This document shows positions 9,822 through 29,341 of a DNA stretch of 35,406 nt, one piece after another. The number at the start of each line of letters is the position of its first letter. The stretch's first letter is position 1. The stretch is from Prevotella sp. (GTDB lineage: Bacteria; Bacteroidota; Bacteroidia; Bacteroidales; Bacteroidaceae). The DNA is taken from contig JAFZUS010000138.1 of assembly GCA_017618275.1 (NCBI GenBank), positions 1 to 35,406 on the forward strand. The letters are read 5' to 3'. Below the pieces are notes generated by a model that saw only the letters and a program-made list of their open reading frames with translations, did not search any database and was not told the DNA's origin. The translations under genes and the position numbers were made by a program.

Positions 9822-10941
9822 TCTTTTCTTTGGATTTCTCCCACAGCCAGGTTCCTAAAAGAGGAATGCCAACTCCTGCGATAGTGTAAAGAATCCAGAA
9901 AAAGTCCTCTTGGGAATGGTCGTGTATCACCATGTGGCAGCCAATCTGTCGGATGTCCATTCCGTAGTACCATATCTTAATCAGACTCACCACCTTGTAG
10001 GAGATGATGTGGAAGATGAAAATGTTCAGCGTATGGTCGCCAGTATAGACGAGGAACCGCTTGAACCATCCCTTGCTGGCATCTAACCATCGGCTGATGT
10101 TATAGGTCATCAAGAACCCAAGGATGGCAGGAACGGGGAGCGACAGGAACTGTTGGAAGGTGGATCGCCAGTTCATGTTGGCAGTCAGATATTTCGAGAA
10201 GAACCAGACAATGATGCCAAAGAGAATGGTGGCGGGAATGGCCATATACTTGTGTGACATGATTTGGCGGTACCCGTTGACATGCTGGCGGAAGATAAAT
10301 CCGACACCGAAGAAGAAGCATCCCATCATGTCGCGATAGCCCCCCTGAACGAGATTGATGACCTTCAGTCCCTCCCATGTCTTCCAACCGCAGAGCAGTA
10401 GCATGATGATGCAGATGAGACAGGGGGTGGCTTTTGGGGATATCCTGGATAATCCGGAAAATCCGGAAATCCCAGAATCCACCACCTTATATATAATAAG
10501 GTATAGGATGCTGGCCACGAAGAGTCCCCTAAAGAACCAGAACGCCCCGCAGAGGAATGCATCATAACCGCCCATTGCCGTGAATATGTTCCAGAGGTTC
10601 TGCTGTATCTGGTGAGCCGAATAGGGATGCAGCACACCGCCTTGTTCGTTGCCATAGACTTCGTTGAGGACGCCTATGTCGTACATCCAGTTATGGATGA
10701 TCAGAAAGAATACCGCCCATTTGACAAACGGAATATAGAGTCCCTTGACGCGCTTCTTGACGAAGGTGGCCTCATCGTGGAGATATTTCGTAGAGAAGAA
10801 AAAGCCTGCCGTGATAAAAAACAGGGGCATGTGGAACTCGAAGATATATTTGCACAGCCAGCCTGGGGCTTCAGCGTGGGCGATGACCATCAGGATAATG
10901 GCAATGCCCTTGGCTATGGATATAATGGTATCGCGCTTCAT
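9781..10941 (-). CDS. Membrane acyltransferase, acyltransferase-3 family
   Basis: The 386-residue protein has the acyltransferase-3 (OatA/WecH/NodX type) signature. The N terminus RDTIISIAKGIAIILMVIAHA carries the catalytic His of helix 1, and FEFHMPLFFITAGFFF is the second conserved segment. About ten hydrophobic helices follow. Such enzymes move acyl groups across the membrane onto surface sugars or peptidoglycan. The ATG at 10939-10941 overlaps the TGA of the upstream phospholipase D gene (ATGA), showing translational coupling; the 23 extra codons upstream lie inside that gene. A loop near the middle is encoded by tandem 9-mers (10443-10479). The acceptor substrate is not known; the operon context points to the cell envelope. 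Confidence 0.83.
   Translation of the reverse strand: MKRDTIISIAKGIAIILMVIAHAEAPGWLCKYIFEFHMPLFFITAGFFFSTKYLHDEATFVKKRVKGLYIPFVKWAVFFLIIHNWMYDIGVLNEVYGNEQGGVLHPYSAHQIQQNLWNIFTAMGGYDAFLCGAFWFFRGLFVASILYLIIYKVVDSGISGFSGLSRISPKATPCLICIIMLLLCGWKTWEGLKVINLVQGGYRDMMGCFFFGVGFIFRQHVNGYRQIMSHKYMAIPATILFGIIVWFFSKYLTANMNWRSTFQQFLSLPVPAILGFLMTYNISRWLDASKGWFKRFLVYTGDHTLNIFIFHIISYKVVSLIKIWYYGMDIRQIGCHMVIHDHSQEDFFWILYTIAGVGIPLLGTWLWEKSKEKIKAYRASSVAQPQ
10443..10479. repeat. Tandem 9-bp units (TCCGGAAAA type) inside the acyltransferase gene
   Basis: Plus-strand units are TCCTGGATAA, TCCGGAAAA, TCCGGAAAT and CCCAGAATC. In the coded strand they give a Ser-Gly-rich loop DSGISGFSGLSRIS between hydrophobic helices. 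The same 9-mer is repeated at the 3' end of nuoB (30533-30577). Confidence 0.8.
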
Positions 10942-12164
10942 AGCCAGGGGGTGAGCAGACTGCCGAACCAGCCTCTGAACTTCTGCCAGCCCGTACGGAA
11001 ACGATCCCATTCCTCTTCGGTAAGAATCACGCTCTTTTGCTTATCACGATCAAACATATCGTCGAGTTCCTTAGTGGTCTCACGGTTGACGATGAGTGCG
11101 TTCTCCTCGTAATCAAAGCGTAGACTGCGGGCATCGAGGTTCGTGCTGCCAACGGTGCAGAAACGACCGTCGACCATCATGATCTTAGAGTGATGGAAGC
11201 CTGGCTGGTATAGCCACACATTGGCGCCGAGTTTCATCATCTTGTGGGCATTGCGGAACACAACATCTGGAGTCAGGGGAATGTCGCTTTTCGCAGAGAC
11301 CATGATCTCTACTTTGATACCTCGTTTGATGGCCCGTTTCAAGGCTTTCTTGATACAGGGTATCAGGGTGAAGTAGGGGTTGATGAGTTTGATAGAGTCC
11401 TGGGCATCGTCGATGGCATGGACGTAAAACTGTCGCATGATCTTATTGGTGGTGTGCGGCTCACGATTGACGATACCTACCATTTTATTGCCAGCCGGCT
11501 CTCCACTGTAGTATTTTGGAGCAGTCACCTTTTCCTTGGTGGCTTTCTTCCAGATGCGGGCGAAAATCTCCTGCAGGTCGTTCACGGCAGAGCCTTCTAT
11601 CCGACAGTGCATATCACGCCATTCGCCTACCTGTTCCGTACCAACGATATAGTAGTCGGCCACATTCATACCACCTGTGTAGGCCGTCTTGCCGTCGATG
11701 ACGACAATCTTACGGTGGTCACGAGGCCAGATATGGTTCACCCATGGGAATCGGATGGGGTCGAACTCCACGATATTGATGCTGTCTTCACGGAGTTTCT
11801 TGAGGTGATGCTTCTTGAGGGGCTGGTTGTTAGAGTCGTTGCCAAAGCCGTCGAACATGGCACGTATCTCCACGCCTTCCTGGCGTTTCTCTTTCAGCAG
11901 GTCGAAAAGCAGTGATGCGATGGAGTCGTTGCGGAAATTGAAATACTCTAAGTGGACACTGCTCTTGGCTTGACGGATTGTCTCGAACATATCCGCAAAT
12001 TTCGCCTTTCCCGACATGAGCAGTTTCACATCGTTGTCGTTGGTGAAGTGAACGCCATACTCTCTCATCTGCCTGACAATCAAGGAATCACTGGTTTCCG
12101 CCTGAGCAGAAACCGTGATAACTGATAAGAGATAAATGATAAGAAAGAAGACGCCCCTAATCAC
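10938..12164 (-). CDS. Exported phospholipase D / cardiolipin synthase-like protein
   Basis: The 408-residue protein has two complete PLD (HxKxxxxD) motifs: His150-Lys152-Asp157 in DHRKIVVID and His325-Lys327-Asp332 in HHSKIMMVD, each followed by a Gly-Ser/Gly-Met-Asn element as in bacterial cardiolipin synthases. Cardiolipin synthases usually carry two N-terminal membrane helices. This one instead has a signal-peptide-like start ending VSAQA, so it may act in the periplasm on phospholipids. The start is GTG at 12164, the only in-frame choice that keeps the signal sequence. It lies 2 bp after the regulator stop codon, and its own stop overlaps the acyltransferase start. Phosphatidyl transfer is the likely reaction; the exact substrate is inferred. 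Confidence 0.82.
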   Translation of the reverse strand: MIRGVFFLIIYLLSVITVSAQAETSDSLIVRQMREYGVHFTNDNDVKLLMSGKAKFADMFETIRQAKSSVHLEYFNFRNDSIASLLFDLLKEKRQEGVEIRAMFDGFGNDSNNQPLKKHHLKKLREDSINIVEFDPIRFPWVNHIWPRDHRKIVVIDGKTAYTGGMNVADYYIVGTEQVGEWRDMHCRIEGSAVNDLQEIFARIWKKATKEKVTAPKYYSGEPAGNKMVGIVNREPHTTNKIMRQFYVHAIDDAQDSIKLINPYFTLIPCIKKALKRAIKRGIKVEIMVSAKSDIPLTPDVVFRNAHKMMKLGANVWLYQPGFHHSKIMMVDGRFCTVGSTNLDARSLRFDYEENALIVNRETTKELDDMFDRDKQKSVILTEEEWDRFRTGWQKFRGWFGSLLTPWL

Positions 12165-12166
12165 TG

Positions 12167-15100
12167 CTATTTCCTGTGCTTGAGTCTGTATTCAAGCGGT
12201 GTCATACCAAACTTCTCACGGAAGATGTTGATGAAATTCTCGGCAGTCATGAAACCGATATTGGTAGACAACTCACTCATATTTATATTGGTACGCTTCA
12301 GCAGGATGCATGCATGTTTCAGTCGCAGGTCGCGGATAAGTTCAGTCGGTGTCTTGCCCGTCAGGTTGCGCACACGGTGGAAGAACGGAACGCGTCCCAT
12401 GCCCATGGCCGTCGACATCTCCTCCAGACTGATCTGGCCACGGCTCATGTTCTGCATGACATATTGCTCAATGTTCTTCAGGAGTTGCTGATCCATCATG
12501 TCAAGCATAGAGAAGTCTGCCATATCCTGCTGTATTTCCTCCTCCTTGAGTTTTTCCAACTGGCGGGCAAGTTCTGTGTCCTCCTGAACCACTGGTCCCT
12601 TCTTGATGTTTGTCTCCACCTTATGGATGGGATCGTTTTCGTCCACGCTGTCGTTATTAGGATCATATGTCCCGATGTCTTCGTAACTCTCTGTAGCCGT
12701 CGTCATACTGGCGTTGCGGTCTTCGAGCATACGGGTCTCTGCACCTTCAATAAGGTTGCTGTCCATCTCAATTGGACCGAGTCCGAGAATCTTGTTGAAC
12801 CGCATCACGGCCTCTTGCAGGTTAAATGGTTTGGCCAGATAATCATCTGCAGACAGCGTGATGTTCTGCTTGCGCATATCCTGTGGTGTGAGTACACCAT
12901 CGGTCAGCAGCACGAACTTTGTCTTCTGGGTAATCGTGTTGGTCTTGATCTGGTTGCATAGTTCACTACCGGTCATACCTGGCATGTCTTGTTTACAGAT
13001 CACGAGGTCCGGACGCATCTCAAGGATATCGTCAGCGGCCTTCTCGATGTCGTTATAGGCATGGAAGGCATATACGTATTTCAGTCTGGCTGAGACAAAT
13101 TTCAAGAAGTCGGTATTGTCATCAATCATTACGATAGAGAACTTCATCGTTGGTGCATCAAGGGCGGCTCTCGACCTAGTGAAGTCTGATGTCAGTGTCT
13201 CACTCGCAACTTCGGGCAATTCTATCTCACCACGTCCATTTAGTTCAAGACGGTCGTGAACCACATTCTTGGCCTTCTCTTCTGGATTCTCCAGATTGGT
13301 CTGCATATCACTGACGCGGGTGATGATCTGTAGCATCTGTGAGTGCAGGGCATTCAGTTGTTCGCGTTCCTCCAGCGACTTCTCTTTCTCCGACAGGTTA
13401 CCGATAATAGAGGTCATACGGGCCATCGGCTGACGTAGGTCGTCACTGGCTGCCTTGATTTCCTCACGTTGGCGTACCAGTTGGTTGATAATGGCGTGCT
13501 TGCGTGTCTTGATAGCCTTGATTTGCTGCATACCAATACGCCAGAAATAGATGATGACGGCGGCAAGCAACAAGTAGGCGAGGATCATCCACCAGGAAAG
13601 CAGCCAGTGACTCTCGACGTGGATGTCGAGGGTACGCTCCTGATTGCTGACGGCACCCTCTGCACTGATGGCCTTTACATGTAAGGTGTAGTTACCGCTG
13701 CTAAGGTTTTGGAAGGTGACGCCATGTGTCAGGGCATTACCGTTTTTCCAGTCATCATCGAGTCCTTCCATCCAGTACATGAACTGAAGACGTTCGCTTT
13801 GGTTGTAGTTTCCTGCACCGAACTTAATGGTGATTGTGTTCTGGTCGTGTCCCAAAATCAGTTTGCTGCTCTCGTTCAGGGCCTGTCCCAAAAGCACCTT
13901 ACCACCATAGGAGTGACCTACCTGTACCTCCTCTTCGCCGAGGAACAACTGTGTCAACATGACTCTTGGCAAGGCATCATTGTCGTCCTTTCCTTTCTGA
14001 ACCACCCAGTTGATGCCAAAGACACCGCCAAGCAGCACGTTACCGTCTTTTTGGGTGATAATGGCACCATGATTGAACTCGTTGCTCTGCAGACCGTCGT
14101 TTGTGTCGTAGTTGTAGAGTCCGAAGTTATAAGTACCATCCTCATGATTGCGCTGTACCACTACACGACTCACACCACTACTGGTTGTTACCCAGATGTT
14201 GTGGCTCTTGTCTTCTGCAATACCGCAAACGTTGTTGTTGCAGAGCCCCTGTTTTTCCGTTAGGTATTGCAGGTTGTCGGTTTCCATATCCAGGATGTTC
14301 AGACCTTCACGAGTGCCGATCCAGATCAGTCCCCGAGAGTCTTGCAGCACCTGCGTGATGTAGTTGTTGGTAAACGGCTTCACATTGTTGGAATTACCTG
14401 TCAGGACCTTCTTCTCCGTATTGGAGAGATTCATAATCACCAGACCTTCGGCAGTACCGATAAAGAGGTCGTTGGCCTTTCCATCCTTATTATAATAGAG
14501 GCAAGACACATTGTTGGTATTCAGTTTTCCACTTTCCCTGGTGTAGGAAGAGAAGGAATTCATCCTGGGGTTGTAGACCTGTAGACCACCGTTGGTCGCA
14601 ATCCACAGGTTTCCGATCTTATCAGTACACAGGGCGTTTATATGGTCGTCGATCAGCGTTCTAGTACTGTCTTTTGTCAACGAGTAGATGGTAGAGTTAC
14701 CACCTTTGATGCGGGTCAGTCCATTGCGCATTGAACCAACCCACAAACTCCCGTCGGGAGTAATAGCCATACAGGAAACCTTCAGACTAGCCAGTGGTCC
14801 TTGATAGCCTAGCACGCCATTGTTACTCGTTCCATACCATATTTTCCCACTGTCAGCCTGTGCAATGGCAGTAATGTCTCCGTTATGTGTTGTACCAAAC
14901 CGATAGATATAGTTGCCGGAGAAAGCGATGCCTCTTTTCTCTGTTCCCACCCAGAGTAGGTCTGTGTCGTCTACATAGAGACTCTGGATACTGATTCTAT
15001 CGCGTGAGATACGACGGACGTTGATATTCACAGGAGTGATGCTGTCAATCTGGTGGGTGTTGATGTCGTAGCGTAGCAGACCCAACTGGTCGGAACCGAT

Positions 15101-15952
15101 CCAGATGTTCCCTTTCCTGTCGCCAGCCATGCCATTGATATTACGGTCTACACCTACACCTGTCAACCCCAGACTGTTGCCGATGGAGGTATCCCATGTG
15201 TTGGCGTTCTTGTTGTATTTGAAGAGGGTACCCTGACCGTAGAGCCAGATATTATCCATGTCGTCGGCAAATACTTTCAGCGATTTGCTTTTCCTGATCT
15301 TCTGTGCGGCAATGTCACTGGTACCCCAGACGGTGTGCTGTTGGTGCATCACGTCACAGCATACAAGACGTCCGTCATCATAGACGATGATGGCACCGTC
15401 CTTACACTCACCGATGGAGCATACCAGACCTTGTGGTACACCGTGGGCATCGTCGGTGTATCCGAACTCATAAGATGTCTGTTGCTGCATGTTGAAGCAG
15501 ACCACGCCCTTGTTGGGGATGGCACCCCAGAGGTTCTTGTGGCGGTCCACATAGACGATGCTCGGAATTGTCTCGATACCCATTCGGGCGAAATACTGTT
15601 TCATATCGCGCTCGAAACTCTCTGTCTGCGGATGATAGACGCAATAACCGGAGGCCGTTTCAATCAGCAGGTTGCCGTCGAGCGTTTCCTGAATGGTATT
15701 AATGTAACTGTTGGGCAGTGAGTTGCCGTCCTGCGAGTCGCTCTGGAAATTCTTGAACACATAACCGTCATACCGGTAGAGTCCGGCAGGTGTGCCAAAC
15801 CACATGTATCCGCGTGAGTCTTTCAGGATACAGTTAATCTGACTACTGGTAAGTCCGTCTTTGGCATCCAGTGTCTTAAACAGGTATTCTGCCACCACAA
15901 CCATTGGAAGTATGAGCAGCAGTACAAGCATCAGTTTTCTTATAGTTTTCAT
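12167..15952 (-). CDS. Degenerate HTCS-type membrane regulator (sensor propeller, pseudo-receiver, AraC domain)
   Basis: The 1261-residue protein starts with a signal peptide. A long series of two-component-propeller repeats follows (WFGTPAGLYRYDG, IWIGSDQLGLLRYD, LWIATNGGLQVYN, IWIGTREGLNILD and others), then a Y_Y_Y domain, one membrane helix (about 783-803), a coiled segment, a receiver-like domain (937-1055), an acidic linker and a C-terminal AraC-type helix-turn-helix (about 1155-1261). In normal HTCS proteins a HisKA and HATPase lie after the helix. Here the His box reads SDDLRQP with Asp837 in place of His, and only about 95 residues separate it from the receiver, with no ATPase motifs. 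The receiver phosphoacceptor position is Lys987 (VICKQDMPG), although Asp944/945, Thr1017 and Lys1041 remain. The frame is intact. It is the third gene of the kdsA unit. Confidence 0.9.
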   Translation of the reverse strand: MKTIRKLMLVLLLILPMVVVAEYLFKTLDAKDGLTSSQINCILKDSRGYMWFGTPAGLYRYDGYVFKNFQSDSQDGNSLPNSYINTIQETLDGNLLIETASGYCVYHPQTESFERDMKQYFARMGIETIPSIVYVDRHKNLWGAIPNKGVVCFNMQQQTSYEFGYTDDAHGVPQGLVCSIGECKDGAIIVYDDGRLVCCDVMHQQHTVWGTSDIAAQKIRKSKSLKVFADDMDNIWLYGQGTLFKYNKNANTWDTSIGNSLGLTGVGVDRNINGMAGDRKGNIWIGSDQLGLLRYDINTHQIDSITPVNINVRRISRDRISIQSLYVDDTDLLWVGTEKRGIAFSGNYIYRFGTTHNGDITAIAQADSGKIWYGTSNNGVLGYQGPLASLKVSCMAITPDGSLWVGSMRNGLTRIKGGNSTIYSLTKDSTRTLIDDHINALCTDKIGNLWIATNGGLQVYNPRMNSFSSYTRESGKLNTNNVSCLYYNKDGKANDLFIGTAEGLVIMNLSNTEKKVLTGNSNNVKPFTNNYITQVLQDSRGLIWIGTREGLNILDMETDNLQYLTEKQGLCNNNVCGIAEDKSHNIWVTTSSGVSRVVVQRNHEDGTYNFGLYNYDTNDGLQSNEFNHGAIITQKDGNVLLGGVFGINWVVQKGKDDNDALPRVMLTQLFLGEEEVQVGHSYGGKVLLGQALNESSKLILGHDQNTITIKFGAGNYNQSERLQFMYWMEGLDDDWKNGNALTHGVTFQNLSSGNYTLHVKAISAEGAVSNQERTLDIHVESHWLLSWWMILAYLLLAAVIIYFWRIGMQQIKAIKTRKHAIINQLVRQREEIKAASDDLRQPMARMTSIIGNLSEKEKSLEEREQLNALHSQMLQIITRVSDMQTNLENPEEKAKNVVHDRLELNGRGEIELPEVASETLTSDFTRSRAALDAPTMKFSIVMIDDNTDFLKFVSARLKYVYAFHAYNDIEKAADDILEMRPDLVICKQDMPGMTGSELCNQIKTNTITQKTKFVLLTDGVLTPQDMRKQNITLSADDYLAKPFNLQEAVMRFNKILGLGPIEMDSNLIEGAETRMLEDRNASMTTATESYEDIGTYDPNNDSVDENDPIHKVETNIKKGPVVQEDTELARQLEKLKEEEIQQDMADFSMLDMMDQQLLKNIEQYVMQNMSRGQISLEEMSTAMGMGRVPFFHRVRNLTGKTPTELIRDLRLKHACILLKRTNINMSELSTNIGFMTAENFINIFREKFGMTPLEYRLKHRK

Positions 15953-15967
15953 AAGGCTGTATTTCTT

Positions 15968-16915
15968 TTATATCATACATGAATAGTGGTCAACCACGCC
16001 GAGCAGATGTTTCTCGTCGTCAGTCACCAGTACCGAATGTATCTTATATTTGTTCATAATCTGTTGTATTTCTGAAATCTTTGTGTTAGGCCTGACCGTC
16101 TTTGGTGTGCGCGTCATGATGTCGCTCACGGTGTGGTCGAAGAATTCGGCCTGCCATTTCTCTGTGGCCCGACGGATGTCGCCATCAGTAATGAGACCCA
16201 CGATCTGGCCGTTTGTCTCTGCTACGCCAAGTCCCAGTTTGCCTTTGCTCACAAGGATAATGGCTTCCCCGAGTCGCATGTCAGGCGGCAACACGGGCAT
16301 GTCTTCTGTCCGCATCACGTCCTGTGCCGTTGTCAACAACCGTTTGCCAAGTTCTCCACCCGGATGGAACTGGGCGAAATCGCGCGGCTGGAAGTTGCGC
16401 TTCTCTATCAGGGCTACTGCCAGAGCGTCGCCCATCGCCAACTGCGCCATCGTCGAACTGGTGGGAGCCAGGTTCAATGGGCAGGCCTCTTTCTCCACAC
16501 TCACATTCAGGTGACAGGTAGAGTATTTGGCCAACAGCGACTGCGGATTACCGCTCATACCGATAATGGGAATCTGCATATGCAGTACCATGGGGATGAA
16601 ACGCAGTAGTTCATCTGTCTGTCCGGAGTTGCTGATTGCTAATACCACATCCTCCTGCGCCATTACCCCCAAGTCGCCATGGAAGACGTCCAGTGGGTTG
16701 ATGAAAAACGAAGGAGTGCCCGTTGATGAGAGGGTAGCGGCAATCTTGGCACCGATGTGTCCACTCTTGCCGACACCTGTCACGATGACCTTTCCCTTGC
16801 AATGATAGATCAGTTCAACGGCTTCGTCGAAACTGTCGTCAATCTGGGGAATCAGTCCCATCACGGCCTGAGCCTCATCCTTGATGCATTGTATGGCGTA
16901 TTCTCTTGCAGTCAT
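15968..16915 (-). CDS. kdsD: D-arabinose 5-phosphate isomerase (KpsF/GutQ family)
   Basis: The 315-residue protein has an N-terminal SIS sugar-isomerase domain (VIVTGVGKSGHIGAKIAATLSSTGTPSFF, HGDLG and ISNSGQTDELL). A pair of CBS domains follows (about 205-315; VMRTEDMPVL and SDIMTRTPKTVRPNTKI), the standard KdsD layout and length. It converts ribulose 5-phosphate to arabinose 5-phosphate, the first step of Kdo synthesis for lipopolysaccharide. Its ATG overlaps the TGA of kdsA by 4 bp (ATGA). The product of this gene is the substrate of that gene's enzyme, so the pairing strongly supports both calls. The HTCS-like gene begins 15 bp after its stop codon. Confidence 0.95.
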   Translation of the reverse strand: MTAREYAIQCIKDEAQAVMGLIPQIDDSFDEAVELIYHCKGKVIVTGVGKSGHIGAKIAATLSSTGTPSFFINPLDVFHGDLGVMAQEDVVLAISNSGQTDELLRFIPMVLHMQIPIIGMSGNPQSLLAKYSTCHLNVSVEKEACPLNLAPTSSTMAQLAMGDALAVALIEKRNFQPRDFAQFHPGGELGKRLLTTAQDVMRTEDMPVLPPDMRLGEAIILVSKGKLGLGVAETNGQIVGLITDGDIRRATEKWQAEFFDHTVSDIMTRTPKTVRPNTKISEIQQIMNKYKIHSVLVTDDEKHLLGVVDHYSCMI

Positions 16916-17673
16916 TTGATGATTTTTGAAATAAGCGGTTCGAGTTTATCGAGTTCCAGCATATTGGCAGCGTCGCTCAGTCCCTTGTCTGGATCGGGGT
17001 GGACCTCGAAAAACCAGCCTGTGGCACCGAAGGCTTTTGCTGCCAGAGCCATCTGCGGCACAAATCGCCTGTCGCCGCCGGTCTTGCCGTCGCTACCGCC
17101 TGGTCGCTGTACACTGTGCGTACAGTCCATGATGACTGTCGGCACAATCTCCAGCATGTCGGGGATGTTGCGGAAATCCACCACAAGGTTGTTATAGCCC
17201 ATCATGTTACCTCGCTCTGTCAGCCATACTTCTTTAGCACCAGCCTCACGGGCTTTTTCAGCAGGGTACCACATGTCTTTCCCACTAAGGAATTGTGCCT
17301 TCTTAATGTTCACGATGCGTCCTGTCTGGGCGGCAGCCACAAGTAAGTCGGTCTGCCGACAGAGGAAGGCTGGTATCTGCAGCACATCGCACACCTCGCC
17401 TGTCGGTTTAGCCTGCCAGGCTTCATGGATGTCAGTCAGAATGCGGAGCCCATATTTCGCTTTGATGTCAGATAGCATCTGTAATCCGTGCTCCAGACCA
17501 GGACCACGGAATGAGCGTATCGACGTGCGGTTAGCCTTGTCGAACGATGCCTTAAAGATGATGTCTGTCCCGTACTTTTCGTTGATTTCCACCAACTTAC
17601 GTGCAACTGTGTCGAGCAGTTCCGCAGACTCAATCACACAGGGACCGGCAATGATAGTTGCTTCTTTCATCAT
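16912..17673 (-). CDS. kdsA: 3-deoxy-8-phosphooctulonate synthase (Kdo-8-phosphate synthase)
   Basis: The 253-residue protein carries the family hallmarks: IIAGPCVIES near the N terminus, FKASFDKANRTSIRSFRGPGLEHGLQ, the ILTDIHE strand, DVLQIPAFLCRQTDLL, NIKKAQFLS, and MDCTHSVQRPGG near the C terminus. It condenses phosphoenolpyruvate with arabinose 5-phosphate to give Kdo 8-phosphate in the cytoplasm. The Cys in IIAGPC is conserved in all KdsA enzymes. Two ATG codons stand in tandem at the start; the first is used here. It is the promoter-proximal gene of the unit kdsA-kdsD-regulator-PLD-acyltransferase, with a good promoter just upstream. Confidence 0.96.
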   Translation of the reverse strand: MMKEATIIAGPCVIESAELLDTVARKLVEINEKYGTDIIFKASFDKANRTSIRSFRGPGLEHGLQMLSDIKAKYGLRILTDIHEAWQAKPTGEVCDVLQIPAFLCRQTDLLVAAAQTGRIVNIKKAQFLSGKDMWYPAEKAREAGAKEVWLTERGNMMGYNNLVVDFRNIPDMLEIVPTVIMDCTHSVQRPGGSDGKTGGDRRFVPQMALAAKAFGATGWFFEVHPDPDKGLSDAANMLELDKLEPLISKIIK

Positions 17674-23047: not shown

Positions 23048-24370
23048 ATGAAGACAAAAAAACTACTGACACTTCTGCTTGTGGTCATGGTATCGTTCCA
23101 GTTATCGGCACAGATACGCGGGTACAATATCATGGTGACGGTACAGCCCGACCATCAGGACTGGACCTACAAGACAGGTGAGAAGGCTACGTTTACGGTG
23201 AACGTGTTGAAGTCGGGCACCCTGCTCGACAACGTCACCATCGACCTGGCCGCTGGTCCTGAGATGTATCAGGACGTGAAGAAAAGCATGGTGCTGAAAG
23301 ACGGCACGCTGAAACTGACGGGAACGATGAAGCAGCCGGGTTTCTACCGTGTGGATGTGACGGCACATGTAGATGGTAAGGACTATAAGGGGGCCTGTGG
23401 GGCCGCCTTCTCGCCCGAGCAGTTACAACCCTCTACCGTGATGCCTGCTGACTTCGAGTCGTTCTGGCAAAATGCCATTGCAGAAGCCCGAAAGACTGAC
23501 CTTGATCCCACGAAACGGCTGTTGCCAGAGCGTTGCACGAAGGATGTGAATGTCTATGAGGTGAGTTTCCAGAATATGAACTGGGGCAACCGCACCTATG
23601 GCATCCTCTGTGTACCGGTGAAGGAAGGGAAATATCCCGCCCTGCTCAGGGTGCCGGGTGCTGGTGTGCGTCCCTACGGCGGTGACATCTATACAGCCTC
23701 GCAGGGCGCCATCACTTTGGAGATAGGCATTCACGGAATCCCCGTGACGATGGAGCAGAAGGTGTATGACGACCTGCACAACGGGGCTCTCAGCGGTTAC
23801 TGGGAGTTCGGGATGGATCATCGCGACAAGAGTTATTACAAACACGTGATACTCGGTTGTATCCGTGCCCTCGACTATATCGAGCAGTACACCCCTTGGA
23901 ATGGGAAGGAGTGTGGTGTGACGGGTTCCTCGCAAGGGGGATTTCTCACGCTGGCAACAGCCGGTCTGGACAAGCGTATTACCTACTATGCCCCTGTGCA
24001 TGCTGCCCTTTGCGACCATACGAACTCTTTAAGGGGTATTGCCTGCGGGTGGCCACACTATTTCTATGAAAGTGAGAAGGTGAGAAAGGGAGAAGGTGAG
24101 AAGGTGAGAAAGGGAGAAAGTGAGAAGATTGAGACTTCGAGGTATTATGACGGGGTGAACTTCGCACGTTTGATTACGGACAAACAGAAGGGATGGTTCT
24201 CGTTTGGCTACAACGACGACGTGGTGCCGCCGACAACGGCTTGGGCCACCTATAATATCGTGAAGGGCCCGAAGGAGATCTCGCCTTATCAGGCCACTTG
24301 GCACTTCTGGTATCAGGAGCAGTGGGACGAGTGGGAAGACTGGCTGTTGAGAGAAATGCATCTGAGGTAA
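23048..24370 (+). CDS. Secreted CE7-family acetyl xylan/mannan esterase
   Basis: The 440-residue protein starts with a signal peptide (MKTKKLLTLLLVVMVSFQLSAQ). An N-terminal beta-sandwich (about 25-130) comes next, then an alpha/beta-hydrolase domain of the AXE1/cephalosporin-C deacetylase family. The nucleophile is Ser295 in GSSQGG, the acid Asp390 in GYNDDVVPP and the base probably His419 in ATWHFW. Preceding a mannanase, it probably removes acetyl groups from mannan. Odd feature: about 19 residues after the YYAPVHAAL segment, a Lys-Glu-rich insertion (EKVRKGEGEKVRKGESEK) is encoded by seven tandem 8-bp repeats (24072-24127) and is not part of the family fold. The GH26 start follows 14 bp after the stop codon. 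Confidence 0.88.
   Translation: MKTKKLLTLLLVVMVSFQLSAQIRGYNIMVTVQPDHQDWTYKTGEKATFTVNVLKSGTLLDNVTIDLAAGPEMYQDVKKSMVLKDGTLKLTGTMKQPGFYRVDVTAHVDGKDYKGACGAAFSPEQLQPSTVMPADFESFWQNAIAEARKTDLDPTKRLLPERCTKDVNVYEVSFQNMNWGNRTYGILCVPVKEGKYPALLRVPGAGVRPYGGDIYTASQGAITLEIGIHGIPVTMEQKVYDDLHNGALSGYWEFGMDHRDKSYYKHVILGCIRALDYIEQYTPWNGKECGVTGSSQGGFLTLATAGLDKRITYYAPVHAALCDHTNSLRGIACGWPHYFYESEKVRKGEGEKVRKGESEKIETSRYYDGVNFARLITDKQKGWFSFGYNDDVVPPTTAWATYNIVKGPKEISPYQATWHFWYQEQWDEWEDWLLREMHLR
24072..24127 (+). repeat. Seven tandem 8-bp units (GTGAGAAR type) inside the CE7 esterase gene
   Basis: Consecutive octamers are GTGAGAAG, GTGAGAAA, GGGAGAAG, GTGAGAAG, GTGAGAAA, GGGAGAAA and GTGAGAAG. The first three units repeat as a 24-bp block, which is why the reading frame survives. 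They encode a charged insertion in the esterase. Confidence 0.92.
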
Positions 24371-24383
24371 AGGTAAAAAAGTA
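24365..24383 (+). repeat. Short GGTAAAAA-type repeat tract before the GH26 start codon
   Basis: The stretch reads AGGTAAAGGTAAAAAAGTA and overlaps the CE7 stop codon. It is the same necklace as the octamer in the nuoH leader and is complementary to the CTTTTTAC array at 24437-24472. The two tracts could pair and enclose the GH26 start codon. Confidence 0.6.
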
Positions 24384-24384
24384 T

Positions 24385-25542
24385 ATGAATATGAATAAAA
24401 AAGGATTTTGCAGTTCAAAGGTGTTGGGTATAAAGGTTTTACCTTTTTACCTTTTTACCTTTTTACTTTTTCTTGGCTGCTCGACAACCAAGAAGGCGGA
24501 GCCGGAGAAGACACAGGCCCAGCAGTTGATGGAGCGACTGGACACTCTCCGCAATAAGGGCTATATGTTCGGCCATCAGGACGATCCGTTCTATGGCCTG
24601 ACTTGGGAGTATCAGGCCGACTCCAGCGACGTGAAGAATGTCTGTGGCGACAGGCCTGCCGTGATGGGCTTCGAACTTGGCGGTATTGAGATGAATGATG
24701 CCAAGAACCTTGACAGCGTGCCTTTCACCCGTATGACAGAGGAAATCATCAGACATTATCAGCGAGGGGGAATTATCACCATCAGTTGGCATCCCCGTAA
24801 CCCTGCCACAACGGCTCCTGATGGCGGTAGAGGTGCGCAGAAATTCCCCGAGGGTTCTGCCTGGGATGTCAGTGACTCTACTGTCGTGAACAGTATACTG
24901 CCTGGTGGACGTAACGCTGAGTTGTTCAAGGTTTGGATGGATCGGGTGAGCGACTTCCTGGCTACTCTGAAGACCGACGACGGACAGAAAATCCCCATCA
25001 TCTTCCGGCCTTGGCACGAGAACACGGGTTCGTGGTTCTGGTGGGGTGAGAGCCTCTGTACGGCAGAGGACTACAAGGCCTTGTGGAACCTGTTGCAGGA
25101 CAAACTCACGGCCGACGGCTTTGACAACCTGCTTTGGGCCTATTCGCCTGGTATGGCTGCCAATCTGACAGAAGAGAAATACCTGGAACGTTATCCTGGC
25201 GACGACAGGATCTCGTTGGTGGGTATTGACGGTTATCAGTGGGGTACGAAGGAGGCCTTTGTATCCGAGTTGGATGCCAACCTCGATATGCTGACCAAGT
25301 TTGCCGAGAAACGTGGTAAGGTGGCTGCGCTGACGGAGTGCGGTCTGAAGAACCTGACCGACCCGACGTGGTGGACATCGACGCTGACACCCGTGCTCGA
25401 CAAGTATCCCATCAGTTATTTCCTCGTGTGGCGTAACTACAAGGAGGAGTGGTTCGGTCCCTCGCCTGCAAAGCCTGATGCTGAGTACTTCAAGCAGTTG
25501 TACGATAAGGATAATACTTTGTTTCTGAACGAAATCAAATAA
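24385..25542 (+). CDS. GH26-family beta-1,4-mannanase lipoprotein
   Basis: The 385-residue protein has a lipoprotein signal ending FLLFLGC, so the mature enzyme is anchored at Cys32. The GH26 barrel follows: [31 protein letters not shown], the acid/base Glu212 in [15 protein letters not shown], the nucleophile Glu318 in AALTECGL, and [14 protein letters not shown]. It would release mannobiose from mannan, as the Bacteroides fragilis enzyme of this family does. The ATG at 24385 is chosen; a second ATG two codons later is also possible, while the longer frame from 24298 lies inside the esterase gene. The hydrophobic core of the signal peptide is encoded by a tandem 8-bp repeat. GH130 begins 4 bp after the stop. 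Confidence 0.92.
24437..24472 (+). repeat. Tandem CTTTTTAC octamers encoding the GH26 signal-peptide core
   Basis: Three exact CTTTTTAC copies (24443-24466) are flanked by partial units (TTTTAC before, TTTTTC after). Translated across the repeat they give [11 protein letters not shown], which is the hydrophobic region of the lipoprotein signal. Eight is not a multiple of three, so gain or loss of one unit would shift the frame. Confidence 0.92.
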
Positions 25543-25546
25543 CAAT

Positions 25547-26710
25547 ATGACCGAATTTGAACAGAAAGTGGCAGCCATGCGTGCGGAGCATGAGGCGCTG
25601 CTGAACAGGAAGAACGAACCTTTAGAGGGTGGGAACGGAATCTACGAGAAATATAAGTATCCTGTGGTGACTGCCGCCCATGTCCCCTTGGAGTGGAAGT
25701 ACGACTTCAATGAACAGGATAATCCCTACCTGATGCAGCGCATCATGTGCAATGGCGCTTTCAATGCGGGGGCCATCAAGTGGAATGGTAAGTATCTGCT
25801 GATTGTCCGTGTGGAGGGTGCTGATCGTAAGAGTTATTTCGCAGTGGCTGAGTCGCCCAACGGCATTGACAACTTCCGTTTTTGGGAAGAGCCTATCACG
25901 ATGCCCGATGATGTGGTGCCTGCCACCAATATCTATGATATGCGTGTCACACAGCATGAGGATGGCTGGATCTACGGCGTGTTCTGCGCCGAGCGTCACG
26001 ATGACTCACAGCCAGGTAATCTCTCTGCTGCGACGGCTACGGCAGGCATCGCCCGTACGAAAGACCTGAAGACGTGGGAGCGGTTGCCCGACCTGAAGAC
26101 GAAAAGTCAGCAGCGCAACGTGGTGCTCCATCCGGAGTTCGTGGATGGGAAATACGCTTTCTATACCCGTCCCCAGGACGGTTTCATTGATACAGGATCA
26201 GGCGGTGGTATCGGTTGGGCGCTCGTGGATGACATCACCCATGCAGAGATCAAGGAAGAGAAGATCATCAACGCCCGTCACTATCACACCATCACGGAGG
26301 TGAAGAATGGCGAGGGACCGCATCCCATCAAGACGCCGAAGGGGTGGCTGCACCTGGCGCACGGTGTCAGGGCAACGGCCGACGGTCTGCGCTATGTGCT
26401 CTATATGTATATGACGGCACTCGACGACCCCACGACGGTGATTGCCAAGCCAGGCGGTTATTTCCTTGTGCCGGAGGGCAACGAGTATGTGGGTGACGTG
26501 ATGAACGTGGCCTTTGCCAATGGTTGGATTGCCGACGAGGATGGTAAGGTCTTTATCTATTACGCCTCTGCCGACACCCGTATGCACGTGGCGACCTCGA
26601 CTATCGACAGACTTCTCGACTATTGCATGCACACGCCGGAGGACGGTCTGACGACGGCTGCCAGCGTGGAGACGATCAAGAAACTAATCAACAAGAATAA
26701 AATGAAATAA
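25547..26710 (+). CDS. 4-O-beta-D-mannosyl-D-glucose phosphorylase (GH130)
   Basis: The 387-residue protein is a five-bladed beta-propeller GH130 enzyme of subfamily 1. Signature segments are [43 protein letters not shown] with the general acid Asp131, [38 protein letters not shown] and [10 protein letters not shown]. Asp131 falls at the same number as in the characterised Bacteroides fragilis enzyme. It splits mannosyl-glucose with phosphate into mannose 1-phosphate and glucose in the cytoplasm. The substrate is made by the epimerase two genes downstream from mannobiose released by the upstream GH26. There is no signal peptide. The symporter begins 2 bp after its stop. Confidence 0.95.
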
Positions 26711-26712
26711 CT

Positions 26713-28056
26713 ATGGCAAGTTTAAAAGAAAAAATCGGTTATGCACTTGGTGATGCAGCCGCAGGTGGTATTACCTGGAAAATCATGTCTATCGCTTTTC
26801 CGCTCTTCTTCACGAATGTCTTCGGACTGACTGTTGCTGATACGGCTACACTGATGCTGATAGCCCGAATGTTCGATGTGGTCACAGACCCGTTGATGGG
26901 TAGTCTGGCCGACCGCACACAGTCGCGCTGGGGCACCTATCGTCCGTGGCTCATCTTCGGTGCCGTCCCCCTCGGACTCATCTTCGCCCTGTTGCTCTAC
27001 ACACCGGACTTCGGACCTGTGGGCAAGCGTATCTATGCCTATACGCTCTATCTCCTGATGATGGCTGTGTATACGGCGGTCAACGTGCCTTACGGTTCTC
27101 TGTTGGGTGTGATGACAGACAATGACAATGAGAAGAACCAGTTCTCGTCTTTCCGTATGGTAGGTGCCTATGCGATGGGCTTTATTACCTTGCTGTCGTT
27201 CCCGTACCTGCAGAAGATGGTGGGTGGCTCTGAGGCCCATCAGTATGCTGTCTTAGGTGCCGGTTTCGGTATTCTGGCAGCCGTGATGACACTGGCCTGC
27301 GGCTTCCTGACAAAGGAGCGTCTGAAGCCCGTACGCGCTGAGAAGTTCTCGTTCCGTCCCTTTGCCGACCTCTTCAAGAACAAACCTTGGATCTATCTGA
27401 CGCTGATAGGAATCTGTACGAATTTCTTCAATGGCTTCCGCTATGCAGTGGCAGGTTATTTGCTGGAGTATTGTCTGCATGGCGACGTGACGGTGAGCGG
27501 ACTGATCATCAACTATACGGTGTTCATGACCTTTGGTGAGGTGACCTGTATGATTTTCGGTGGCGTGTCACCAAAATTCACAGAGTGGATTGGCTCCAAG
27601 AAAAAGGCATTTATGGCGGCTGCCGTCATCTGTATCGTCTTCTCTGTGGTGTTCTTCTTCGTACCGATGGATCCTGACTATATCTGGGTACTGGTGGCTA
27701 TTGTTATCCTGACCTCTATCGGTGTGGGTCTCTATTCACCGCTGTTGTGGTCGATGTATGCCGACGTGGCAGACTATGCTACCGAGAAAAATGGTACTTC
27801 GTCGACGGGTCTGATCTTCTCGTCTGGTACGATGGCTCAGAAGTTTGGTACAGCCATCTCGGGCTCTCTGGTGGCATTGTTCTTGGGTCTGGCTGGTTTC
27901 GTATCGGGTACAGACCCCGCTACAGGTGAAACGGTTGTGACCATCAGCGACATGGAGGCTGTCAGGAATATGGTGTGGGCACTCTTCTCCCTGTTCCCCG
28001 CAGCCATCGTACTGATCATGATGTTCCTGATCTACAAGTATCCCATCAAGAAATAG
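26713..28056 (+). CDS. GPH-family sugar:cation symporter, probable mannobiose importer
   Basis: The 447-residue membrane protein has about twelve hydrophobic helices and belongs to the glycoside-pentoside-hexuronide (MelB-like) group of the major facilitator superfamily. Landmarks are EKIGYALGDAAAGGITWKIMSIAFPLFFTNVFGL, the motif-A-like ARMFDVVTDPLMGSLADRTQSRWGTYRPWLIFGAVP, and WSMYADVADYATEKNGTSSTGLIFS. It uses a sodium or proton gradient to import sugars across the inner membrane. Its place between the GH130 phosphorylase and the epimerase, the same order known for the B. fragilis mannan operon, indicates mannobiose as cargo. Start ATG lies 2 bp after the GH130 stop, and the epimerase follows after 1 bp. 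Confidence 0.92.
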   Translation: MASLKEKIGYALGDAAAGGITWKIMSIAFPLFFTNVFGLTVADTATLMLIARMFDVVTDPLMGSLADRTQSRWGTYRPWLIFGAVPLGLIFALLLYTPDFGPVGKRIYAYTLYLLMMAVYTAVNVPYGSLLGVMTDNDNEKNQFSSFRMVGAYAMGFITLLSFPYLQKMVGGSEAHQYAVLGAGFGILAAVMTLACGFLTKERLKPVRAEKFSFRPFADLFKNKPWIYLTLIGICTNFFNGFRYAVAGYLLEYCLHGDVTVSGLIINYTVFMTFGEVTCMIFGGVSPKFTEWIGSKKKAFMAAAVICIVFSVVFFFVPMDPDYIWVLVAIVILTSIGVGLYSPLLWSMYADVADYATEKNGTSSTGLIFSSGTMAQKFGTAISGSLVALFLGLAGFVSGTDPATGETVVTISDMEAVRNMVWALFSLFPAAIVLIMMFLIYKYPIKK

Positions 28057-28057
28057 T

Positions 28058-29341
28058 ATGACGGTTGTTTCGTTGATGAAACAGGAAATGCAGGATGTCT
28101 TGGAAAACAACATCCTGCGTTTCTGGCTTGACAAGATGCAAGACCGTGAGAACGGTGGGTTTTACGGACGTATCGACGGTAGTGGGGTGTTGCACCCCGA
28201 GGCCGAGAAAGGCGCCATCCTCAATGCCCGTATTTTATGGGCGTTCTCGGCTGCCTACAGAGTCTTAGGCAACCTTGAATACCTAGGAGCATCTAGGATA
28301 GCCTATGAATATCTGATAGAGCACTTTATCGACCCCGAATATGGGGGGGTATATTGGAGTCTCGATTGTCATGGCAATCCGTTGGATACCAAGAAGCAGT
28401 TCTATGCCATCGGCTTTGCCATCTATGGGTTGACGGAATATGTTCGTGCAACGGGCGACAGGGAGGCGTTGGAATATGCACTTGACCTGTACGACTGTAT
28501 AGAGGAACACGCCCTGGACCGTGCGCACAACGGCTATATCGAGGCTTGTACCCGCGAGTGGGGCGAAATAGCGGATATGCGACTGTCGGCGCTCGATGCG
28601 AACTATCCCAAGTCGCAGAATACTCATCTGCATATCATCGAGCCCTACACCAATCTATTGCGCTGTCTGAAAGAACTGCAGGCTCAAGAGTCGTGTGACT
28701 ATGTGCCAGTTGTCGGGTCTGTATTGCCTGTGGGCATCACCGTACCAGTGGAAACCATTGTTGCTGTGGAGGCTTCGCTACGAAATCTTATCGATATCTT
28801 TACCGACCGGATCCTGAACCCCGACACCCATCATCTCGACCTTTTCTTCGAGATGGACTGGACACGTGGGGCGGGACATTTGGAGAGTTATGGCCACGAC
28901 ATCGAGTGTTCGTGGCTTATGCATGAGGCTGCGCTGGTGCTGGGCGACAAAACCGTGCTGGCTAAGGTGGAACCGATTGTCCGTGAAGTGGCGAAGGCCT
29001 CGGAGAAAGGGCTTCGCCCGGACGGTTCGATGATTCATGAGGCTAACCTCGATACCGGGCATGTGGATGATGACCTCCACTGGTGGGTACAGGCAGAGAA
29101 TGTCGTGGGGTGGTTCAACCTCTATCAGCACTTCGGTGATGAGGACGCATTGGTGAAGGCCAGCAAGTGCTGGGACTATATCAAGTCGCAACTGATTGAC
29201 TACGAACAGGGCGAGTGGTTCTGGAGCCGTCATCCTGACGGTACTCTGAATACGGTCGATGACAAGGCTGGCTTCTGGAAGTGTCCTTACCATAATAGTC
29301 GTATGTGTCTTGAAATCATTGAAAGAAACACTGCCTTGTAA
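28058..29341 (+). CDS. Cellobiose/mannobiose 2-epimerase (AGE family)
   Basis: The 427-residue protein is an (alpha/alpha)6-barrel of the N-acylglucosamine 2-epimerase family. It has the features of cellobiose 2-epimerases: ENGGFYGRIDGSG, NARILWAFSAAYR, LDCHGNPLDTKKQFYAIGFAIYGL, the His-Glu segment GHDIECSWLMHEA and the C-terminal WKCPYHNSRMC with the second catalytic His. It converts mannobiose to mannosyl-glucose for the GH130 phosphorylase. Oddity: between RCLKELQAQES and RNLIDIFTDRI a hydrophobic stretch YVPVVGSVLPVGITVPV and a few more residues appear inserted compared with relatives. ATG 28058 is 1 bp after the symporter stop; a second ATG at 28076 could also serve. A probable terminator follows. 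Confidence 0.92.
   Translation: MTVVSLMKQEMQDVLENNILRFWLDKMQDRENGGFYGRIDGSGVLHPEAEKGAILNARILWAFSAAYRVLGNLEYLGASRIAYEYLIEHFIDPEYGGVYWSLDCHGNPLDTKKQFYAIGFAIYGLTEYVRATGDREALEYALDLYDCIEEHALDRAHNGYIEACTREWGEIADMRLSALDANYPKSQNTHLHIIEPYTNLLRCLKELQAQESCDYVPVVGSVLPVGITVPVETIVAVEASLRNLIDIFTDRILNPDTHHLDLFFEMDWTRGAGHLESYGHDIECSWLMHEAALVLGDKTVLAKVEPIVREVAKASEKGLRPDGSMIHEANLDTGHVDDDLHWWVQAENVVGWFNLYQHFGDEDALVKASKCWDYIKSQLIDYEQGEWFWSRHPDGTLNTVDDKAGFWKCPYHNSRMCLEIIERNTAL

Follow-up and report, generated by a model that had tools for sequence, protein, structure and literature searches.

HTCS-type sensors, named for hybrid two-component systems (HTCSs), normally have a kinase that hands phosphate on to a DNA-binding arm. 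BT4236 is an HTCS whose phospho-His position is occupied by Gln. Its describers suggest from this residue change that it works independently of phosphorylation, and substitutions in the S/CHIP-DK inhibitory motif are reported to give phosphorylation-independent DNA binding (Gao, Wu and Stock, PMC11253607). Hybrid transmembrane transcription regulators (TTRs) are suggested to be recent and unconserved at the genus level in the portion of a survey drawn on here, which leaves open whether transmembrane regulators derive from two-component systems (PMC10269533). For aspartate-less receivers, the cited section of another survey puts Arg, Lys, and His together at 4% of substitutions (PMC4395418), and a passage of a 2025 perspective calls the on/off switching of pseudo-receivers a mystery (PMC12632262). 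Here, we describe a regulator gene in a 35,406-nucleotide stretch of Prevotella sp. DNA (the window; assembly GCA_017618275.1, contig JAFZUS010000138.1, positions 1 to 35,406, forward strand). Its product is probably a membrane-tethered, phosphorylation-independent, HTCS-derived transcription regulator that signals by conformation. Members of its family lack the ATPase domain as well as both phosphotransfer residues, and the gene is consistently located between kdsD and a cardiolipin-synthase-like (cls) gene.

The regulator is encoded by a single stop-free frame of 1261 amino acids on the minus strand, with its ATG at 15952 and a stop codon ending at 12167 (Table 1). A preliminary description of this DNA had placed a propeller, a Y_Y_Y domain, a membrane helix, a receiver, and an AraC domain in one 1261-codon frame, and both the frame and Pfam bear this out: Reg_prop matches at E 2.1e-34, Response_reg at residues 940 to 1049 (E 2e-13), and HTH_18 at residues 1180 to 1256 (E 1.5e-15), the last being found in 32/32 family members scanned with Pfam. 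The top solved-structure matches of the propeller sensor, 4a2l and 3v9f, are both titled as hybrid two-component proteins, and 12aw, the top match of the AraC domain, has a hybrid two-component title as well. A structure model of the monomer shows a continuous helix over residues 787 to 855 and a second helix over residues 860 to 888. Among the matches listed in a VIA-align fold comparison, only the receiver is covered, with one row extending further. The two motifs quoted in the preliminary description were also read correctly: in SDDLRQP, Asp837 occupies the phospho-His position, and in VICKQDMPG, Lys987 occupies the phospho-Asp position.

A search of 100 genomes of the genus at a match threshold of E <= 1e-150 found the gene in 38 (the source genome included) as open frames of 1251 to 1345 amino acids, and the 37 other proteins are 58 to 90% identical to the window protein. 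A scan of named genomes gave 177 relatives in 181 candidate stretches. The best 80 of these 177, hereafter the named loci, encode proteins 60 to 94% identical to the window protein; their titles are Prevotella, Prevotellaceae, Xylanibacter ruminicola, and uncultured Bacteroidales or bacterium, with ruminant hosts in many. For the family set, we pooled 153 loci with the window and kept the 123 open reading frames (ORFs) above 1300 bits, a cutoff that was chosen after the scores were known and that excludes two sister-genus proteins with Glu at position 987. These ORFs contain the window gene twice and some others twice, and dropping rows more than 97% alike leaves the 110 family rows used below. 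Alignment A1 omits L070 and L071, which have long linkers.

Both substitutions are present by motif in 123/123 family ORFs, and 8/8 records not labeled as metagenome-assembled genomes (MAGs) carry them. Of the 110 family rows, 91 have Asp and 19 have Glu at position 837, where 24/24 canonical HTCS rows have His. At position 987, Lys occupies 110/110 rows, encoded by AAA in 41 and by AAG in 69. Where the preliminary description proposed aligning orthologs next to the kds genes, an acidic residue at 837, Lys987, and the missing ATPase proved common to all 110 family rows.

Several searches address the missing ATPase. HATPase gives no Pfam match in the window protein and does not appear in the 25 Pfam families listed, out of 40, for 32 family members. 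We also built our own ATPase hidden Markov model (HMM) from 16 canonical HTCS ATPase segments. It matches 24/24 canonical rows, including the 16 used in building it. At E <= 10, it matches 0/34 kinase-less rows and 0/123 family ORFs, and a six-frame translation of the window gives no hit at E <= 1e-3. The distance from the hairpin end to the receiver start is 42 to 46 residues in 110/110 rows, leaving no room for an ATPase domain. The stretch before the receiver, described earlier as lacking the HATPase N, G1, and G2 motifs, thus has no HATPase by Pfam or by our HMM, but it is not empty, since residues 833 to 893 form a conserved DHp-like hairpin. Mean conservation over the hairpin is 0.82, and Leu839, Arg840, Pro842, and Met843 are invariant in the 110 rows. 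Compared by hhalign with 23 canonical DHp segments, the hairpin scores E 4.6e-5 at a probability of 68.5. The HisKA Pfam match in the window protein has an E of 0.01 and 16.3 to 18.3 bits, against a cutoff of 26.9, and HisKA is matched at E <= 0.1 in 20/32 family members (best E 0.0022). From the membrane-helix column to the His position, we count 60 residues in 23 canonical HTCSs (the motif search missed one of the 24 rows), 53 in 21/21 family proteins, and 49 in 2/2 sister-genus proteins. The family spacing is exactly 7 residues under that of the 23 canonical HTCSs, and spacing steps of 7 and 11 would suit a coiled coil.

The receiver fold lacks its phospho-Asp, which makes this domain a pseudo-receiver (aspartate-less receiver). 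Of the remaining receiver residues that the preliminary description called conserved, Asp944, Thr1017, and Lys1041 are invariant (110/110 each), but position 945 is Asp in only 74 rows, with Ser in 20, Asn in 11, and Thr in 5; Tyr1038 is retained in 106/110. Of the S/CHIP inhibitory motif, the receiver half is lost. Its Pro position, 1012, is Lys in 107/110 family rows and Pro in 21/21 canonical rows with a letter there, and His occupies the second S/CHIP place in 1/110 family rows. The DNA-binding half is retained, with Asp1154 in 110/110 rows and Lys (66) or Arg (44) at position 1193, a residue located through the alignment and a 39-residue spacing. After the receiver, a linker at residues 1054 to 1090 has at least 98% identity at 12 of its 37 positions over the 110 rows and matches no named domain; a role in contact or docking is possible.

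We next consider selection, measured as the ratio of nonsynonymous to synonymous substitution rates (dN/dS) from Nei-Gojobori counts over 291 pairs with a dS of 0.2 to 1.2; the pairs are not independent. The median is 0.224 for the whole protein. It is lowest in the AraC domain (0.086), followed by the hairpin (0.107), Y_Y_Y (0.139), the propeller (0.203), the receiver (0.243), and the variable linker (0.61). By plain identity, the AraC domain and Y_Y_Y stand at 0.84, the hairpin at 0.82, the propeller at 0.78, and the receiver at 0.73. The low dN/dS means that selection constrains the hairpin of a vanished kinase almost as tightly as it does the DNA-binding end. These comparisons indicate a kinase-less state that is inherited and maintained by selection. 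The view that the state is settled, and not one of fresh decay, is upheld by full-length open relatives 58 to 94% identical to the window protein, by the 110/110 rows with the substitutions at 837 and 987, and by a hairpin dN/dS of 0.11.

Because phospho-His, ATPase, and phospho-Asp are all missing, we file the protein as an HTCS-derived relative rather than as an HTCS. Signaling by conformation only is our best reading of the mechanism that remains. The mechanism that we infer, with its targets, ligand, dimer state, and mechanical step, would run as follows. The sensor dimer would be altered by a ligand in the periplasm, probably a glycan or a fragment of the envelope; glycan binding is suggested by kinship with HTCSs, and a link to the envelope by the neighboring genes. 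The continuous helix would transmit this movement across the membrane into the DHp-like hairpin, which would serve as a dimer hinge and no longer as a phospho-donor. The Lys987 pseudo-receiver would be fixed in one state, serving as a spacer or dimer interface, with Lys987 perhaps paired with Asp944 in a metal- and phosphate-free pocket. The AraC domains, released from the usual receiver clamp, would bind DNA once the dimer geometry fits.

Several observations weigh against this reading. The DHp identity of the hairpin is modest (sub-cutoff HisKA, hhalign 68.5), and the 7-residue step in spacing could also be chance. The structure model has a mean predicted local distance difference test (pLDDT) score of 71.3 and a predicted template modeling (pTM) score of 0.33. 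Among the domains, dN/dS is highest in the receiver (0.24), which thus evolves fastest. At the phospho-Asp position, the 23 canonical rows with a letter there have Asp in 21 and Ser in 2, so that loss of the Asp alone, seen in 2/23 ATPase-bearing proteins, is not special. The His of the inhibitory motif is retained in only 9/21 canonical rows, which leaves only the Pro-to-Lys change telling. Lastly, the search at E <= 1e-150 gave no match in 62 of the 100 genus genomes, so the gene is dispensable.

The strongest alternative is a constitutive DNA binder, with the AraC domain always on or acting as a constant repressor, control at the level of expression, and the sensor a mere anchor. The DNA-binding domain would be released by Lys at the phospho site together with the missing receiver half of the inhibitory motif, and constitutively active pseudo-receivers are discussed in part of the 2025 perspective (PMC12632262). 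An idle sensor should erode, however, whereas the propeller (0.20) and Y_Y_Y (0.14) are under selection and the hairpin is constrained nearly like the DNA-binding domain, and we therefore regard a constitutive binder as unlikely.

The neighboring genes bear on both the conformational reading and its next rival. The order kdsD, regulator, cls-like phospholipase D (PLD) gene is found in 80/80 named loci, with kdsA ahead of kdsD in 78. Measured from naively chosen start codons, the median gap is 15 bp between kdsD and the regulator (maximum 98) and -1 bp between the regulator and cls (maximum 50). Given this fixed order and these gaps, the regulator is probably cotranscribed with the Kdo (3-deoxy-D-manno-octulosonate) genes and the cls-like gene. 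No HATPase gene is a constant neighbor across the 80 named loci, where flanks of up to 8 kb contain only five HATPase hits at E <= 1e-3. The hit at L076 is a spurious antisense frame lacking HATPase motifs, those at L139 and L150 lie in a like place about 4 to 6 kb upstream, and those at L142 and L134 occupy similar positions about 5 kb downstream; no HATPase lies within the flanks of the remaining 75 loci. Within these flanks, a linked partner kinase is thus rejected.

The DHp domain is the dimerization element of kinases, and its preservation here as a DHp-like hairpin fits a protein that pairs in heterodimers with another kinase or a canonical HTCS and acts there as an allosteric subunit of the pseudokinase type. 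At least one genome (G104) has both a family member (L036) and a HATPase-bearing canonical HTCS (L229). Partnership with another kinase, raised in the preliminary description, is nonetheless disfavored and appears quite improbable: the 110 rows have no phosphorylatable Asp to take the phosphate, the survey of linked genes gives no constant kinase neighbor in the 80 named loci, and the membrane-to-hairpin spacing is 7 residues off that of canonical HTCSs. Slightly less probable still is a receiver switched at the Lys987 pocket by another modification or ligand, such as lysine acylation or a small molecule, and not by the helix alone. Lys987 is invariant while neighboring positions vary, and the T/Y coupling residues are retained; other modifications at this site are discussed in part of the aspartate-less receiver survey (PMC4395418), and ligand-binding pseudo-receivers are described in part of the perspective (PMC12632262). 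Against such a switch, the receiver is conserved less than the hairpin and the AraC domain. Finally, we give almost no credence to a decaying or misassembled HTCS copy. Loss of catalytic residues has the look of decay in one genome and the assembly is a draft of 213 contigs, but Lys987 and an acidic 837 in 110/110 open full-length rows, the 8/8 non-MAG-labeled records, a dN/dS of 0.22, and the fixed operon position contradict it.

The distribution of the regulator within the genus also follows the kdsD-cls interval. In 35 regulator-bearing genus genomes, kdsD and cls lie on the same contig and strand at a regulator-sized distance (3.8 to 4.0 kb; one 9.6 kb). In 42 of the 43 scorable genomes without a match, kdsD and cls are directly adjacent on one strand (19 to 263 bp apart), and in the remaining one they are rearranged. 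The rest of the 100 genomes have a single gene or genes on two contigs (14) or neither gene in the lists (7), with the source genome excluded. On an unrooted kdsA-kdsD-cls tree of 44 loci (23 regulator loci plus the window, and 20 without the regulator, all chosen by hand), presence changes 4 times, against a mean of 14.8 with shuffled labels. Our reading is one old gain followed by several clean losses. Beyond the genus, a PLD gene follows 456 bp on at L039, from a third genus, and both sister-genus loci have a cls match farther down the same strand, which hints that the partnership of regulator and cls is old. At L184 (9539 to 14698), a kinase-less, hairpin-less relative that keeps its receiver Asp is followed by a PLD/cls gene, and the fetched stretch has no kdsD or kdsA match.

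We searched 201 and 399 genomes at the taxonomic family level (overlapping draws, E <= 1e-100 and 1e-140) and 295 at the order level (E <= 1e-130). Among the matches listed, those below the Prevotella family are 29 to 37% identical to the window protein, and none is an ortholog with an intact HATPase and His/Asp, the finding that would have spoken for simple decay; the intact HTCSs listed, about 29 to 35% identical, fall outside the kinase-less clade. That clade unites 31 kinase-less proteins from three genera in a maximum-likelihood tree of the sensor (58 rows, support 97/94), as did an earlier sensor tree for 24 rows (44 rows, 96/96); the second tree omits L002, L003, and L073. Within the clade, the Prevotella family retains the hairpin and has Lys in the receiver. 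Two sister-genus proteins have the hairpin and carry Gln or Glu in place of the His, together with a receiver Glu. One hairpin-less protein of the third genus has an intact receiver Asp, and seven more of that genus are hairpin-less with Ser at the Asp position. A tree of the AraC domain (56 rows; L226, which is cut off, and one row under the length limit are omitted) neither shows nor rejects the clade (approximately unbiased test, p-AU 0.53) and places L039 elsewhere. The stem of its Prevotella branch is very long (1.73), as if the DNA-binding end had strongly changed and then been frozen there.

Since relatives in other genera stand at other degrees of loss, the Prevotella form appears to be one stage of a longer conversion. 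We tentatively propose, as a plausible history, that an HTCS lineage was converted stepwise to mechanically coupled one-component regulators. The ATPase would have been lost first, and then the phospho-residues replaced (by Lys in Prevotella, Glu in the sister genus, and Ser in another) or the hairpin dropped; the Prevotella hairpin would have become a transmembrane lever exactly one heptad shorter and the receiver a Lys-locked spacer. If true, such a system would switch transcription across a membrane using components of a phosphorelay and no phosphate.

Outside the clade, kinase and receiver have been lost jointly two further times, in L041/L042 and in L232. The L232 protein, from another family of the order, has 1009 amino acids with a propeller, a Y_Y_Y-type domain, a membrane helix, and an AraC-type domain, and it has no kinase or receiver. 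The proteins at L185 (7136 to 10405) and L186 (8881 to 12150), of 1089 amino acids, consist of a propeller, Y_Y_Y, a membrane helix, a long acidic linker, and an AraC domain, with neither kinase nor receiver; this architecture is an independent loss. The neighbors at L185 are genes for a serine dehydratase, an AlbA_2-domain protein, and a sodium:alanine symporter. On contig C180 of the source genome, L195 (3972 to 9851, minus strand) encodes two adjoining propeller proteins beside GH31 and sugar transporter genes. The first (863 amino acids) has an acidic tail end and no output domain found, and the second (1073 amino acids) has a HATPase and no HisKA hit. The pair is another degenerate HTCS-like arrangement.

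Elsewhere in the window, a mannan-type catabolic cluster (23048 to 29341, plus strand) is divergent from the kds operon and contains genes for an AXE1 esterase, GH26, GH130, an MFS_2 transporter, and a GlcNAc 2-epimerase family protein. GH130 is found in 30/38 genomes with the regulator and 27/62 without (Fisher p 8e-4, uncorrected for kinship) and lies on the regulator's contig in 7 genomes. It also lies near kdsD in some regulator-less genomes (5.9 kb in G042, 23 kb in G044), and we therefore reject the cluster as a fixed partner; it is a possible target of the regulator. No susC/susD pair is named among the window genes scanned, which are part of those in the window.

Table 1. Features of the regulator gene and its neighbors (window coordinates)
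Feature	Position	Strand	Evidence
Whole gene, 1261 aa, HTCS-derived kinase-less regulator	12167..15952	-	frame, Pfam, relatives
Signal-peptide-like N terminus, residues 1-22	15887..15952	-	sequence inspection
Reg_prop beta-propeller sensor, periplasmic, residues 26-700	13853..15877	-	Pfam, 6 stretches
Y_Y_Y domain, residues 715-779	13616..13810	-	Pfam E 3.3e-13
Predicted membrane helix, residues 784-806	13535..13603	-	hydrophobic stretch, model helix
Coil and DHp-like helical hairpin without phospho-His, residues 807-893	13274..13534	-	hhalign, conservation, model
Asp837 codon, phospho-His position	13442..13444	-	
Short linker at missing HATPase, residues 894-937	13142..13273	-	
Pseudo-receiver, residues 938-1053	12794..13141	-	
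Lys987 codon, phospho-Asp position	12992..12994	-	
Lys1012 codon, in place of Pro of S/CHIP inhibitory motif	12917..12919	-	
Conserved linker after receiver, residues 1054-1090 (IEG.ETR.LE..N.SMTTATE)	12683..12793	-	dN/dS 0.17
Variable linker, probably disordered, residues 1091-1143	12524..12682	-	dN/dS 0.61, low pLDDT
AraC-type DNA-binding domain, residues 1144-1261	12170..12523	-	HTH_18
kdsD, upstream neighbor	15968..16915	-	TIGR00393 E 1.6e-96
kdsA	16912..17673	-	TIGR01362 and NF003543 over cutoff
Cardiolipin-synthase-like PLD gene, downstream	10938..12164	-	TIGR04265 273 bits (cutoff 290), PLDc_2

In the literature covered, at the level of listings and abstract openings and with subscription papers mostly outside it, we found no description of a kinase-less HTCS family. 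The architecture class is not unique, as L041, L042, and L232 are of the same one-component type outside the clade. The family offers a natural series in which the same sensor and AraC end persist under selection while phosphotransfer has been removed to varying degrees. It permits a clean test of whether HTCS sensors act on their DNA-binding domains through geometry, to which phosphate adds a lock. It is also a warning for annotation, since a propeller, receiver, and AraC protein in Prevotella is not necessarily a kinase.

Compared with the Bacteroides HTCSs BT4663 and BT4124, the regulator is built of the same parts within a single chain (propeller, Y_Y_Y, membrane helix, DHp-like hairpin, receiver fold, and HTH_18 AraC domain); it differs in having no HATPase, phospho-His, or phospho-Asp, in the loss of the receiver half of S/CHIP-DK, and in its kds-cls operon. 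BT4236, in the part of its description cited above, has one changed residue, whereas the regulator belongs to a family without ATPase, His, and Asp that is conserved over many species. Hybrid TTRs, in the cited portion of the survey (PMC10269533), likewise carry a DNA-binding domain, a membrane helix, and a remnant two-component domain in one chain. The regulator too has a DNA-binding domain and no kinase, its membrane helix being read from hydrophobicity and the model helix only; unlike the hybrid TTRs as characterized there, its family is found in many species within a single genus and has sister forms in two others. SusR-like regulators, as partly described in PMC3878776, are also membrane proteins with a periplasmic sensor and a cytoplasmic DNA-binding end, and the regulator is set apart by that description, in which the DNA-binding end of SusR has no significant similarity to known ones, whereas the regulator has HTH_18. 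With the aspartate-less receivers of the cited sections of PMC4395418 and PMC12632262, it shares the Asp-less fold and the retained acidic residue 1, Thr/Tyr, and pocket Lys. Lys at the phospho-Asp position is rare among those receivers, whereas the regulator's family has it without exception, on a pseudo-receiver linked to a transmembrane sensor. What seems to be new is the combination of a retained hairpin, an invariant Lys, and conservation across many species.

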